Shown here: one piece after another, positions 35,557 to 40,010 of the stretch
Position numbering within the stretch: the first letter of the stretch is position 1
How the letters are laid out: each line of letters begins with the position of its first letter
Assembly: GCF_024228315.1 (NCBI RefSeq)
Contig: NZ_CP100454.1
Location: 1,364,001 to 1,428,000 of the forward strand
Origin: Halomarina pelagica
GTDB taxonomy: Archaea; Halobacteriota; Halobacteria; Halobacteriales; Haloarculaceae
Direction: 5' to 3'
DNA length: 64,000 bases
Made by a program: the position numbers and the translations under genes
The notes under the pieces: generated by a model
The model's input: only the letters and a program-made list of their open reading frames with translations
Database searches by the model: none
What the model was told of the DNA's origin: nothing

Positions 35557-36447
35557 ATGGTTCGTTTCGAGGTGCCGGAGGTCGATTATACCCGGTACAC
35601 GAACCGCCAGTTAGCGGCCGTCCCCGTGGCCCTGCTGGCGGTCGCGCTCCTGATAATCGCCGGGTGGTACGTCGCCACCGGGACTCCCGTGGCGCTCGGC
35701 GTCGACTTCACCGGCGGCACGGAAGTGCAGATCCGGACGACCGACTCGGCCGAGCAGGTCCGCGCGACGTTCGAGGAGCGCGTCCCCTACCCCGTCGAGT
35801 CCGTGCAGGCGGTCGGCCTGGGCGAGAGCGACCAGTACATCGTCACCTTCCAGGCGACGAAGGACAGCCAGGTCCGGGAGATCACCGCCGCGGCGAGCGA
35901 CGCCGGGTACGACGTGCTCGCCTCGCAGTCGCGCTCGCCGACGTTCGGGGCGGACGCCCAGCGCCAGGCGCTCCTCGGCGTCGGCGCGGCGTTCGTCGGG
36001 ATGAGCGTCCTCGTGTTCCTCCTCTTTCGGACGTTCGTCCCCTCCCTCGCCGTCGTCGCCAGCGCGTTCTCCGACATCGTGATCCCCGTCGCCCTGATGA
36101 ACCTCTTCGGCATCAAGCTCTCGCTGGGGACGGTCGCCGCCCTCCTGATGCTGATCGGGTACAGCGTCGACTCCGACATCCTCCTGAACAACCACGTCCT
36201 CCGGCGCAGCGGCGGCTTCTACGAGTCGACCTACCGCGCCATGCGGACGGGGGTGACGATGACGCTCACCTCGATCGCCGCGATGGCGGTGATGACCGTC
36301 GTCGCCTCGCCGTTCGTGTTCGGGATCCCGCTCCTCCCGGAGATCGGGCTGATCCTCGTCTTCGGCCTCACCGCCGACCTCGTGAACACCTACCTCCTCA
36401 ACGTGAGCCTGCTTCGGTACTACAAGTACGAGGGTGTCGCCCGATGA
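35557..36447 (+). CDS. secF: preprotein translocase subunit SecF
   Basis: 296 residues with six membrane segments. GVDFTGGTEVQIR near residue 50 and the later GYSVDSDILLNNHVLRR are the SecF signatures. SecF and SecD help drive late steps of Sec-dependent export using the ion gradient. CTTATTC lies about 25 bases upstream. secF precedes secD, as in other haloarchaea, and overlaps it by four bases. Confidence 0.95.
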   Translation: MVRFEVPEVDYTRYTNRQLAAVPVALLAVALLIIAGWYVATGTPVALGVDFTGGTEVQIRTTDSAEQVRATFEERVPYPVESVQAVGLGESDQYIVTFQATKDSQVREITAAASDAGYDVLASQSRSPTFGADAQRQALLGVGAAFVGMSVLVFLLFRTFVPSLAVVASAFSDIVIPVALMNLFGIKLSLGTVAALLMLIGYSVDSDILLNNHVLRRSGGFYESTYRAMRTGVTMTLTSIAAMAVMTVVASPFVFGIPLLPEIGLILVFGLTADLVNTYLLNVSLLRYYKYEGVAR

Positions 36448-38069
36448 GTCGCCTCCGCGACAACTGGCGGATCCTCCTGCTGGTCGTCATCCTCGTCGCC
36501 AGCAGCGTGGCCCTGTTCGCGCCGCGGGGGAGCGGCGGTGCCGCGGCCGCGAGCGACGGGAACGCCACGGCCGCCGCCGCGACCGGCGGGGGACCGACCA
36601 ACCTCGACTACGGCCTCGAACTCGCCGGCGGGACGCGGCTTCGCGCGCCGCTCGTCGGGCTGACCGCCGAGGGCGTGAACGTCGACCCGCAGGAGCAACG
36701 GAGCGCGCAGCGCGAGATCGCCTCGAACCTCGGCGTCTCCCAGATCGACGTGCAGGTGAGCGCGAACCCCAACGCCAGCGGGGGCGGCACCGTCGAGGTG
36801 TTCGCCGAGAACGTCACGAAGGCGGAGTTCGCGCGGGCGCTCCAGAAAGCGGGGTACGACGTGCCGAAGAGCGACATCAGAGACGGCGTCACCCGGCAGA
36901 CGATGGAGACGGCGGCGGAGGTGCTCGACCGGAAGATACAGGGGTCCGCCGGCTTCGCCGGCGGCGGGGCGAGCGTCGTCACGTCCGCCGACGGGGAGTC
37001 GTTCATCCTCGTGGAGGCACCGGGCGTGAACCGCTCGCAGCTCGTCGACCTCATCGGCGACCGCGGGCGCGTCGAGATCGTGGCCGTGTTCCCCGCGCAG
37101 GGGAACGCCACGGGCGGCGGGAACGGCACGAACGCCACGAACGGGACCGACTACCGCCGCGTCTCGCTGCTCACGCAGAACGACCTCGCGGACGTGCAAC
37201 CCGTCACGCGCGACCAGCAGGGGCGACCGGTCGTCCCGGTGGCGCTCGAACAGCAGGCCGCCCGGAACTTCTCGAACGCGATGCAGCAGTTCGGGTTCAC
37301 GGGGCCGGGCGTCGCGAACTGCCGGTACGAGCAGAGCCCGAACGATCCGGGGTACTGCCTGCTGACGGTCGTCGACGGCGAGGTCGTCTACTCCGCCGCC
37401 ATGGGCCCGAGCCTCGCCTCGAGCATCGAGCAGGGCGAGTTCGTGACCACTCCGTCGTTCCAGACGAGCGCGCGGAACATATCCGAGGCGCAGGAACTCC
37501 GACTGAACCTCGAGGCGGGGGCGCTCCCGGCCCGCCTCGACATCGACTCGGGGACGACGTACTTCCTCCAGCCGAGCCTCGCCGATCGGTTCAAGACGTT
37601 CTCGCTGGTGACGGGGCTCATCGCGTGGGTCGCCGTCGCGGGCGTCGTGGCCTACCGCTATCGCAAGCCGAGCGTCGCCGCCCCGCTCATCCTGACGGCC
37701 GCCGCCGAGGTGTACATCCTCCTCGGCTTCGCCGCCGCGGTCGGCCTGGCGCTCGACCTCTCGCACATCGCCGGGTTCATCGCCGTCATCGGGACGGGGG
37801 TGGACGACCTCGTCATCATCGCCGACGAGATCCTCCAGCAGGGGGACGTGCGCACGGGCAAGGTGTTCCGCTCGCGCTTCCGGCGGGCGTTCTGGGTCAT
37901 CGGCGCGGCCGCCGCGACCACCATCGTCGCCATGTCGCCGCTCGCGGTGCTCTCGCTCGGCGACCTCCAGGGGTTCGCCATCGTCACCATCGTCGGCGTC
38001 CTCATCGGCGTGCTGATCACGCGACCGGCGTACGGCGACGTGCTCCGAAACCTGGTGCTGGGTGAGTAA
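36444..38069 (+). CDS. secD: preprotein translocase subunit SecD
   Basis: 541 residues from the ATG at 36444, which overlaps the secF stop (ATGA). A first membrane helix is followed by LDYGLELAGGTRLRAPL, a large outer domain of about 380 residues, then five helices with GFIAVIGTGVDDLVIIADEI. The outer domain carries several N-x-S/T sequons, possible N-glycosylation sites. With SecF it forms the SecDF complex. Confidence 0.95.
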   Translation: MSRLRDNWRILLLVVILVASSVALFAPRGSGGAAAASDGNATAAAATGGGPTNLDYGLELAGGTRLRAPLVGLTAEGVNVDPQEQRSAQREIASNLGVSQIDVQVSANPNASGGGTVEVFAENVTKAEFARALQKAGYDVPKSDIRDGVTRQTMETAAEVLDRKIQGSAGFAGGGASVVTSADGESFILVEAPGVNRSQLVDLIGDRGRVEIVAVFPAQGNATGGGNGTNATNGTDYRRVSLLTQNDLADVQPVTRDQQGRPVVPVALEQQAARNFSNAMQQFGFTGPGVANCRYEQSPNDPGYCLLTVVDGEVVYSAAMGPSLASSIEQGEFVTTPSFQTSARNISEAQELRLNLEAGALPARLDIDSGTTYFLQPSLADRFKTFSLVTGLIAWVAVAGVVAYRYRKPSVAAPLILTAAAEVYILLGFAAAVGLALDLSHIAGFIAVIGTGVDDLVIIADEILQQGDVRTGKVFRSRFRRAFWVIGAAAATTIVAMSPLAVLSLGDLQGFAIVTIVGVLIGVLITRPAYGDVLRNLVLGE

Positions 38070-38159
38070 TACGAGGTCGTCTCTGACTGTGCTCACCTGA
38101 ACTCCCCTCTCATCCGTCCGTCGTATCGAGGAGGTACCGTGCAGTGCCCGGATACAGCG

Positions 38160-38705
38160 TTACGGCAGGTTCTCGACGGCGTCAACGAGGTCCTCGTCGG
38201 TTCGCCATCGATACAGTCGTCCTCCGTCTTCGAGCAGTTCGAAGACGCCGTTCTGCATCCATCCGAACGGGTGGTCTTCGTCTTCGTATTCCCGTTTGAG
38301 GACGTGACTCTTCGCGAAATATTCGACCGTCCCGACGAGCAGACCCTGTTCGACGAGGAAGTCGCTGGGGTCCTTCTCGGCGACGCCCACGACGTACGTG
38401 ACGAGATCGGCGATGAGACAGAATTTCTGAATGCTGTTGTCCCACTCACCGCGGATATCGACCATTCGGAATGCATAGGCATCTTCTCGGCGGTTCAGAC
38501 GGTCGACTACGAGATTCAATCGACGAATCGGTTCGCGATCGTAGTTCCCGAGGACGAAGTACGAGCGGTCGTTCTCGTATACGGGCGTAAGTTCGCTCAG
38601 CGCACGGAGGATCTCCTCGTTGTCTGCCAGCGATAACTCGTCCTGATCGAGTCGATCCCTCACGCTTGTGAGGACTTCTTCGGGAACCGGTGACTCGTCG
38701 GTCAT
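38160..38705 (-). CDS. hypothetical protein, possible DUF7509-like fold
   Basis: 181 residues from the ATG at 38705. A helical N-terminus (about 1-55) precedes YFVLGNYDREPIRRLNLVVD, then DLVTYVVGVAEKDPSDFLVE. That arrangement recalls nucleotide-sugar-hydrolase-like or TIR-like Rossmann proteins, and haloarchaeal DUF7509; the link is from memory and weak. Its G+C is clearly lower than the flanking genes, suggesting transfer. It is divergent from a winged-helix regulator across an operator array. Confidence 0.7.
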   Translation of the reverse strand: MTDESPVPEEVLTSVRDRLDQDELSLADNEEILRALSELTPVYENDRSYFVLGNYDREPIRRLNLVVDRLNRREDAYAFRMVDIRGEWDNSIQKFCLIADLVTYVVGVAEKDPSDFLVEQGLLVGTVEYFAKSHVLKREYEDEDHPFGWMQNGVFELLEDGGRLYRWRTDEDLVDAVENLP

Positions 38706-38737
38706 ACTCAACGGATTGTACGGGAACTGAGCATGAT

Positions 38738-38807
38738 TTACTGAGTAATCTACCGATTCAGGAACCTTTTGTTTACTCCAGAGTAATTTACCCAAGGGTA
38801 AATTACT
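38738..38807. promoter_or_regulatory. array of TTACTC/GAGTAA dyads between divergent genes
   Basis: Three dyads occur: TTACTGAGTAA (38738-38748), TTACTC-CA-GAGTAA (38773-38786) and a perfect pair of 12-base arms AGTAATTTACCC / GGGTAAATTACT with an AA spacer (38782-38807). The first covers the expected promoter of the minus-strand gene and the last that of the regulator at 38834. The likely binder is the winged-helix protein itself. Confidence 0.75.
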
Positions 38808-38833
38808 TGCCGCGGCACCTCGTACAGGTCGGT

Positions 38834-39247
38834 ATGAGCGTCGACGTAGGAACGCCCGAAGGCACGGACGCCCGCGAACTCGTTCACTTCGTGACCCAGC
38901 GGACGCGGTTCGCGCTGGTCAACAACATCCTCCAGCACCCCGAACAGCTCCCGTCGATGTACGAACTCGAGCAGATGAATCCGAGCGTGAGCGACGCGAC
39001 GGTCTACAAGCACATTCAGAAGCTGATCGACGCCGGCATCGTCAGAGGGGTCGCGCTCCCGGACGACGAGCGCCGTCAGGGGTATCCGTGGAAGTTTTAC
39101 GGGCTAACCGACGAGGGCCGGACGTTCCTCGAGGATCACAACCTCCTGGGGGCCGAGGAGACGCTCCAGCGCATCTACGAGACGATCGCCGACAAGCCCG
39201 AGAAGATGATCAAGTACGAGAACGCTCCCCGACCTGCTGTCGAATAG
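38834..39247 (+). CDS. winged-helix transcriptional regulator
   Basis: 137 residues from the ATG at 38834; the frame is open upstream, but the operator lies there. FALVNNILQHPEQLPSMYEL, then PSVSDATVYKHIQKLIDAGI is the recognition part and GYPWKFYGLTDEGRTFLE the wing. This small family is widespread in Halobacteria, often in many copies per genome. It probably represses its own promoter and the divergent gene at 38705 through the dyads between them. Confidence 0.88.
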   Translation: MSVDVGTPEGTDARELVHFVTQRTRFALVNNILQHPEQLPSMYELEQMNPSVSDATVYKHIQKLIDAGIVRGVALPDDERRQGYPWKFYGLTDEGRTFLEDHNLLGAEETLQRIYETIADKPEKMIKYENAPRPAVE

Positions 39248-39252
39248 TCGGG

Positions 39253-39897
39253 TCAAAACGCGTCGAGCGACGACTGCTCGGCCGCCGCCAGCACGTCGTC
39301 GCAGGTCTTCCACGACGAGCGGGCGCACGCCGGGAGCGCCCCGTGCTCGCGGACGTACTCCCGAAGGAACTCGCGGGTGATCGGGTCGCTCGGGTAGCCG
39401 CTCCCCACCTCGCCGTACTCCGCCGCGATCCGGGCGACGCGGGCGTCGCGCTCTACCTTGGCGATCACGCTCGCCGCCGCGACGTGCGGGTGGGTCTCGT
39501 CGGCGCGGTGCTCGGGGTGGACCTCGACCTCGGCGTCGAGGGCCGCGGCGACCCGGCGGCCGAACCGCGCGGCGTCCACGTCGCCCGCGTCGACGACGCC
39601 CGAGAGCCCCCGCCCCGGGACGCCCGCGTCGGCGATGGCCTCGGCGTGGGCGGCGACCGTGAGCGAGTTCATGTCCGCGCCGGGGTCGTCGATGCGCGCG
39701 ACCGGGATCCGTGCGACGCCGACGGTCACGTCGGCGTGGGCGCGGAGGGAGGCGGCGAGCGATTCCCGGCGCGCGGGCGCGAGGCGCTTCGAGTCGTCGA
39801 TCCCGTCGGGGAGCGCCGACGCCGGGGCGACGACGCAGGCGGCGACCATGGGACCGAGCACCGGTCCCTTGCCGGCCTCGTCCGCGCCGAAGTGCAT
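39253..39897 (-). CDS. rnhB: ribonuclease HII
   Basis: 214 residues from the ATG at 39897. MHFGADEAGKGPVLGPMV holds the first acidic pair, IDDSKRLAPARR follows, and HPHVAAASVIAKVERD is the later conserved block. The enzyme removes RNA from RNA-DNA hybrids, including single ribonucleotides and primers. It converges with the regulator gene, with five bases between stops. Confidence 0.95.
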   Translation of the reverse strand: MHFGADEAGKGPVLGPMVAACVVAPASALPDGIDDSKRLAPARRESLAASLRAHADVTVGVARIPVARIDDPGADMNSLTVAAHAEAIADAGVPGRGLSGVVDAGDVDAARFGRRVAAALDAEVEVHPEHRADETHPHVAAASVIAKVERDARVARIAAEYGEVGSGYPSDPITREFLREYVREHGALPACARSSWKTCDDVLAAAEQSSLDAF

Positions 39898-40010
39898 ACT
39901 CGCCCCGGAGACGCGCAGCGACAAAGGCGTGTCGTCCCGGCGGGAGATAGATACGGGCGGCCGACGCACGGACGGACGATGAGCGCGAGCGGCCCGTGTG
40001 AGGTGTGGCG

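Follow-up and report, generated by a model that had tools for sequence, protein, structure and literature searches.

What does a small winged-helix regulator control from a palindrome-filled gap that it shares with a divergent gene of no annotated family, and what would that gene do once expressed? The question is raised by a haloarchaeal locus in the 64,000-nucleotide stretch of DNA analysed here (the window; G000:C1:1364001-1428000), in which the regulator, P0001, and its partner, P0002, lie head to head with a gap of 128 bp (38706-38833) between their start codons (Table 1). The initial annotation had proposed a divergent regulator and partner sharing a palindromic site, and this arrangement is borne out; the range that it gave, 38703-38836, does contain the array but begins at the last base of the P0002 start codon. 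The gap has a G+C content of 45%, against 70% for the window, and contains no bacterial-type promoter or terminator, as expected for an archaeon. The P0001 reading frame is open upstream as far as a GTG at 38690; its homologues begin at the ATG at 38834. A conserved GTA shortly before this ATG is a possible transcription start for P0001. The pair is not described in the literature searched, a search that left subscription journals mostly beyond its scope.

Table 1. Features of the P0001/P0002 locus, in positions of the window.
Feature	Position	Strand	Remarks
SecD-like protein gene (secD), flanking, outside the module	36429..38069	+	From ORF list; named from sequence; start approximate
Cassette of about 1.2 kb (P0002, operators and P0001)	38060..39256		Inserted between secD and rnhB
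P0002, divergent partner, 181 aa	38160..38705	-	ATG at 38705
O1, imperfect third element TTTACTGAGTAATCTACC	38737..38754		Mean 1.26 bits/column over 38731-38756
O2, TTACTC-CA-GAGTAA	38773..38786		Dyad pattern; mean 1.25 bits/column
O3, 26-bp palindrome AGTAATTTACCC-AA-GGGTAAATTACT, candidate main operator	38782..38807		Mean 1.63 bits/column
Conserved GTA, some 10 bp before the start codon of P0001	38822..38824	+	93-100% conserved in 43 aligned gaps
P0001, winged-helix regulator, 137 aa	38834..39247	+	ATG at 38834
Ribonuclease HII gene (rnhB), flanking, outside the module	39253..39969	-	From ORF list; named from sequence

The regulator and its palindromic array

P0001 is a single winged-helix protein in which neither Pfam nor NCBIfam detects a WYL domain. 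Its Pfam matches, to PadR, MarR and HTH_20, are weak and below cut-off, and with 22.3 bits against a gathering cut-off of 27 for PadR (PF03551) it can be called PadR-like only. A solved homologue is available (PDB 3u1d, E 1.8e-10), and the recognition-helix region falls at about residues 51-66. In being a small winged-helix protein P0001 resembles RosR and other PadR/MarR-like regulators of haloarchaea, as well as 3u1d, its relative in sequence; it has no sequence match to the RosR structures, and PADLOC returns weak HTH-level matches to Csa3 only. CsmR, another haloarchaeal regulator, was excluded as a family member because it is Lrp/AsnC-like (PMC13286277). The same genome encodes a diverged P0001 paralogue of 34% identity (G000:C1:1210835-1211188; L003) with no detectable P0002-like partner. 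Diverged counterparts of P0001 at two further pair loci (L125 and L128) are extended at the C-terminus by a long segment, possibly a second domain, which P0001 lacks.

The gap between the two genes contains O3, whose arms (38782-38793 and 38796-38807) form the perfect 12 + 12 bp inverted repeat that had been reported there, with a 2-bp spacer. Among perfect inverted repeats with spacers of up to 6, it ranks first in length across the entire 64 kb, and shuffling the gap 2000 times with dinucleotide composition preserved never produced its equal. The centre of O2 lies 15 bp from that of O3, and its right half doubles as the outer left arm of O3; two TTACYC-N2-GRGTAA dyads (38773-38786 and 38788-38801) abut with their centres 15 bp apart. 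Half-sites (GAGTAA, TTACTC, GGGTAA or TTACCC) number five in the gap against 0.21 expected, a count that 0 of 2000 shuffles reached. Across 43 alignable divergent gaps, mean information content is highest at O3, followed by O1 and O2 (Table 1), and amounts to 0.5-0.8 bits/column in the leaders and the middle. The locus had been described as holding three TTACTC/GAGTAA dyads, of which two conform to TTACYC-N2-GRGTAA; the third, TTTACTGAGTAA (38737-38748), has a 1-bp rather than a 2-bp spacing; relatives retain its right half, GAGTAAATTACC, but on the left they read TTTA and then yG, not CTC. Because only the right half keeps the operator sequence, three equal dyads was an overstatement. O1 looks more like a single GAGTAA half-site that adjoins or overlaps a TATA-type element of P0002, of which its closer TTTA may form part.

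The spacing of the elements, which precede the two start codons by about 25-35 bp, makes it plausible that they lie over the promoters, with O3 overlapping the presumed BRE/TATA region of P0001. A P0001 dimer would bind the tandem palindromes O2-O3 together with the related element O1, and since O3 is placed over the likely BRE/TATA of P0001 and O1 over that of P0002, occupancy would keep both genes low. The consequence would be negative autoregulation of P0001 coupled with co-repression of P0002. It is also possible that P0001 activates rather than represses.

Candidate operator sites keep to the regulator

The search of the genome for the dyad that the initial annotation had suggested finds TTACYC-N2-GRGTAA twice in 4.6 Mb, both times in the gap, against no occurrence of the reversed control, and the 16-mer with two mismatches allowed occurs at just five further, scattered places. 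Haloarchaeal genomes contain 80 orthologues of P0001, with identities of 74-96%. In a family set of 146 genomes, which together amount to roughly half a gigabase, 20 sites have the exact 16-mer TTTACYC-N2-GRGTAAA, the reversed control again giving none. All 20 lie 30-32 bp upstream of the start codon of a clade-A P0001 orthologue (>=74% identity). Absence of the dyads beside orthologous regulators had been named as evidence against an operator; they are instead found there, and relatives conserve the array better than the remainder of the gap. With about 42 clade-A regulators in the family set, roughly one in two has a diverged site, degenerate or different from the exact 16-mer. No wider regulon emerged from the dyad and mismatch searches of the genome itself or from the 16-mer search of the 146 genomes. 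Exact sites that occur exclusively by the regulator fit a dedicated autoregulatory operator without a wider regulon, and their confinement to the locus means that release of P0001 should alter only the P0001/P0002 pair. This sets P0001 apart from RosR, which has been described as required for a wide-ranging programme of expression under oxidative stress (PMC3443676).

The palindrome belongs to the regulator, because it persists upstream of P0001 where P0002 has been deleted or is absent. A deletion in Halomarina halobia (L041) and in the congener G051 has removed P0002 together with the O1 side (window 38203-38751) and left P0001 along with O2-O3, and P0001 loci found in another context without P0002 (L093, L094 and others) have one long palindrome, AGTAGTTTACTC-N2-GAGTAAACTACT. 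Upstream sequences of the diverged clades have no TTACTC dyads and carry recurring motifs of their own, which in clade B include CGATTCGTATTTGAGCGAAACGC and CGATTCG...GCGAAACGC. Read from the sequences listed, these clade-specific motifs make it appear that operator and regulator have changed together.

These observations also bear on the alternative that the array, instead of being a P0001 operator, is a conserved element of the promoter or transcript whose link to P0001 reflects merely common descent. Such an element would account for the overlap of half-sites with presumed TATA regions and for the fact that every site adjoins related genes. It sits poorly with the two-fold symmetry about a 2-bp gap, the tandem 15-bp spacing, the survival of the array in other contexts and the different upstream sequences of diverged regulators, as well as with a pairwise identity of 0.83 in the operator against 0.61 at the third codon positions of the gene next to it, a figure inflated by the choice of sites by pattern. 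We consider this alternative very improbable.

Operator matches also occur on viral contigs, ten of them on one GC-rich contig, and no P0001 relatives were found there. In the stretches examined, this contig, of 64.6 kb (IMGVR_UViG_3300047440_000139; L207, L211, L217 and L219), has GTTTACCCCGGGGTAAAC ten times without mismatch at scattered places, which look like a dispersed 'stoperator' system, unrelated to the O2-O3 operator and convergent with it.

An operator dedicated to P0001 has a counterpart in BrxR, which represses a defence locus and has imperfect 11-bp inverted repeats adjoining its own promoter (PMC9122601). As with BrxR and CapW, a winged-helix protein, probably a dimeric repressor in the case of P0001, is associated with an inverted repeat of about 11-12 bp by its own promoter and is proposed to control both itself and the adjacent effector locus. 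Those proteins are of the wHTH-WYL type, whereas P0001 has no WYL domain, a single divergent target and an archaeal TATA/BRE context; and they guard phage-defence loci, whereas a defensive role of the P0001/P0002 pair is hypothetical.

The predicted fold of P0002

Searches of Pfam, NCBIfam, PADLOC and PHROGs find nothing for P0002, which defines a protein family without annotation in any searched library; the Pfam family PF05014 (Nuc_deoxyrib_tr) matches neither P0002 nor five other members of the family. Invariant residues in the family alignment (A1) are G53, R62, F95, E110, E119, G121, Y140 and W167. An AlphaFold2 model built with 42 family members as input (mean pLDDT 78.8, pTM 0.75) has an alternating beta-alpha fold, and its top VIA match is DNPH1 (8qhr; Z 12.9, rmsd 2.5, 122 aligned). 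Further matches of the model are to deoxyribosyltransferases, MilB, the retron-Ec86 effector and TIR domains including TIR-STING, the last with Z about 10-11, nearly as high as DNPH1. For a second model, of a clade-D member about 25-29% identical to P0002 (pLDDT 81.8), DNPH1 is again the top match (Z 12.5), with TIR domains at Z 8.4-9.0. The earlier suggestion that the partner handles nucleotides therefore gains support at the level of predicted fold, DNPH1 being top for both models. Foldseek E-values are weak for both, with no PDB match below 1e-3, local hhalign comparison of P0002 with a DNPH1-like haloarchaeal protein gives about 0.1% probability, and hmmsearch against the PDB finds no sequence homology between P0002 and DNPH1. 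The weak Foldseek values combined with the null profile comparison point to a shared predicted fold, not to proven membership of the DNPH1 family.

In a hand alignment, E119 of P0002, within 'FLVEQG', occupies the place of the catalytic glutamate of DNPH1 (Glu104, in 'YELG'), and Y49 (98% conserved) stands opposite Tyr24; DNPH1 Asp80 has no evident counterpart in this alignment. Glu119 is the likely nucleophile. Overall, P0002 is predicted to have a 2'-deoxynucleotide N-hydrolase/deoxyribosyltransferase (TIR-like) fold and to cleave an N-glycosidic bond in a nucleotide, a nucleoside or NAD.

With DNPH1, PF05014 proteins and the CMP N-glycosidase MilB, P0002 has in common this predicted fold and, in the hand alignment, a conserved ExG at the place of the catalytic YELG, but it differs from DNPH1 in having no detectable sequence homology, no clear Asp80 and other motifs (R138, Y140 and W167). 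The effector of Retron-Eco1 (Ec86) combines, in a single chain, a deoxyribosyltransferase-like domain (Z 10.6 to the P0002 model) with a winged-helix part. By contrast, P0001 and P0002 are separate divergent genes, and neither a reverse transcriptase nor msr/msd was noticed beside the cassette. TIR-STING and bacterial TIR proteins may share the overall fold class predicted for P0002 (Z about 10-11), which differs in lacking a recognisable oligomerisation or sensor domain.

With DNPH1 and MilB heading the structural lists, P0002 might be a housekeeping enzyme of nucleotide-pool sanitation, one that clears damaged or modified (deoxy)nucleoside monophosphates as those proteins do, such a nucleotide being the signal that releases P0001. 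We hold this to be unlikely, given the failure to find sequence homology to DNPH1 and the patchy, frequently broken and plasmid-borne occurrence of P0002, unlike that of housekeeping genes.

A probably mobile module and its possible role

In the congener G053, secD and rnhB are directly adjacent, with matches that end at 38059 and start at 39257 lying only 7 bp apart, and this empty site identifies the cassette as an insertion of about 1.2 kb; rnhB is conserved in congeners. The secD-rnhB space (window 38059-39257; L171-L175) is an insertion hotspot in the genus. It is empty in G053, contains this cassette in the window and in G051, an ArsR-like regulator bearing zinc-ribbon-like motifs, together with other small ORFs, in G052 and G056, and extra DNA with no identity assigned in G055 and G057.

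All 27 loci compared, drawn from six clades and as little as 25-30% identical, have the head-to-head layout, with gaps between 95 and 175 bp and one exception at 286, and the genome itself has four more divergent pairs formed by diverged copies. Any member of the family occurs in 74 of the 146 family genomes, and of 393 genomes searched across the phylum with a profile, 49 have the partner family, all of them in the order Halobacteriales. Strict pairing through six clades suggests that P0001 and P0002 make up an ancient effector-repressor module of archaeal plasmids. Clade A is present on many plasmids, orc1/cdc6 lies within 8 kb in four of nine inspected plasmid records (clades A and B), and on one plasmid the neighbours of the pair include ArdC-like, restriction and TA genes. 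A clade-B pair is carried by Haloarcula marismortui pNG600 (RR_RS02200/RR_RS02205). P0001-clade regulators without P0002 (L093, L094, L107, L111 and L117) adjoin a conserved protein of about 107 aa (MSYEPPTPPADLP...) and Orc1/Cdc6-like genes, with AbiEii/nucleotidyltransferase-like genes also near in L094 and L111; this P0001-only neighbourhood is a recurring haloarchaeal plasmid maintenance context. Relatives of P0001 or P0002 were found neither in the phage collection nor in the viral contigs searched, and a viral origin of the pair was rejected on this ground. Identity with the repressor and divergent ORF of phiCh1/phiH1 was likewise dropped, P0001 being unmatched in a phage collection whose inclusion of those two genomes is unconfirmed.

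At 80 clade-A loci, P0002 is intact in 52, broken in six, absent from 20 and undecidable at two (contig ends); P0001 is intact in all 80, but the loci were picked with P0001 as the query, which biases the count of broken partners. Loss of this kind is expected of a costly gene, and together with the two-gene organisation and the plasmid location near orc1/cdc6 it would suit a toxin-antitoxin or plasmid addiction system in which P0002 is a toxic nucleotide or NAD hydrolase and P0001 both repressor and antitoxin, stabilising plasmids. This seems doubtful: the genes are divergent and not co-transcribed, P0001 is often retained without P0002, the broken-gene count carries the bias just mentioned, and a repressor that acts on transcription only has no means of enforcing addiction when the two genes have both disappeared.

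A stand-alone antiviral or anti-plasmid effector is possible, if not what we would expect. Here P0001 would sense infection or a metabolite change and, in the manner of BrxR, derepress a TIR/deoxyribosyltransferase-like effector. The TIR and retron-Ec86 effector structures among the fold matches agree with this, as do the patchy distribution, the mobile cassette and the ArdC-like, restriction and TA neighbours on one plasmid, but PADLOC makes no match, the copy in the window sits between the housekeeping genes secD and rnhB and outside any defence island, viral contigs did not yield the pair, and P0001 has no recognisable sensor domain.

The reading that we prefer, and regard as probable, is that the locus is an autorepressed, self-contained effector cassette in which P0001 represses both promoters and P0002 is an N-glycoside-cleaving enzyme. 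Both genes would be expressed when P0001 is inactivated by a signal, or when it is absent after entry of the DNA into a new cell, and the P0002 so released would act as a plasmid-borne effector or as a nucleotide-pool enzyme. The patchy, plasmid-linked distribution and the occasional decay of P0002 favour a conflict-related role. More tentatively, the pair could represent an unnamed, haloarchaea-wide family of mobile modules, with at least six clades and clade-specific control sequences, in which a private wHTH repressor silences a new family of deoxyribosyltransferase/TIR-like effectors that serve plasmid establishment or antiviral defence through a burst of expression on entry into a cell without the repressor or on its inactivation by infection.

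Few archaeal regulator-operator pairs are so sharply defined from sequence alone. The operator is readable and confined to essentially one locus per genome, which makes the proposal directly testable, and P0001 and its operator could serve as an orthogonal repressor-operator pair in haloarchaeal genetics. If the effector is defensive, the cassette would be a further TIR/deoxyribosyltransferase-like system, one from archaea and with its transcriptional control built in.
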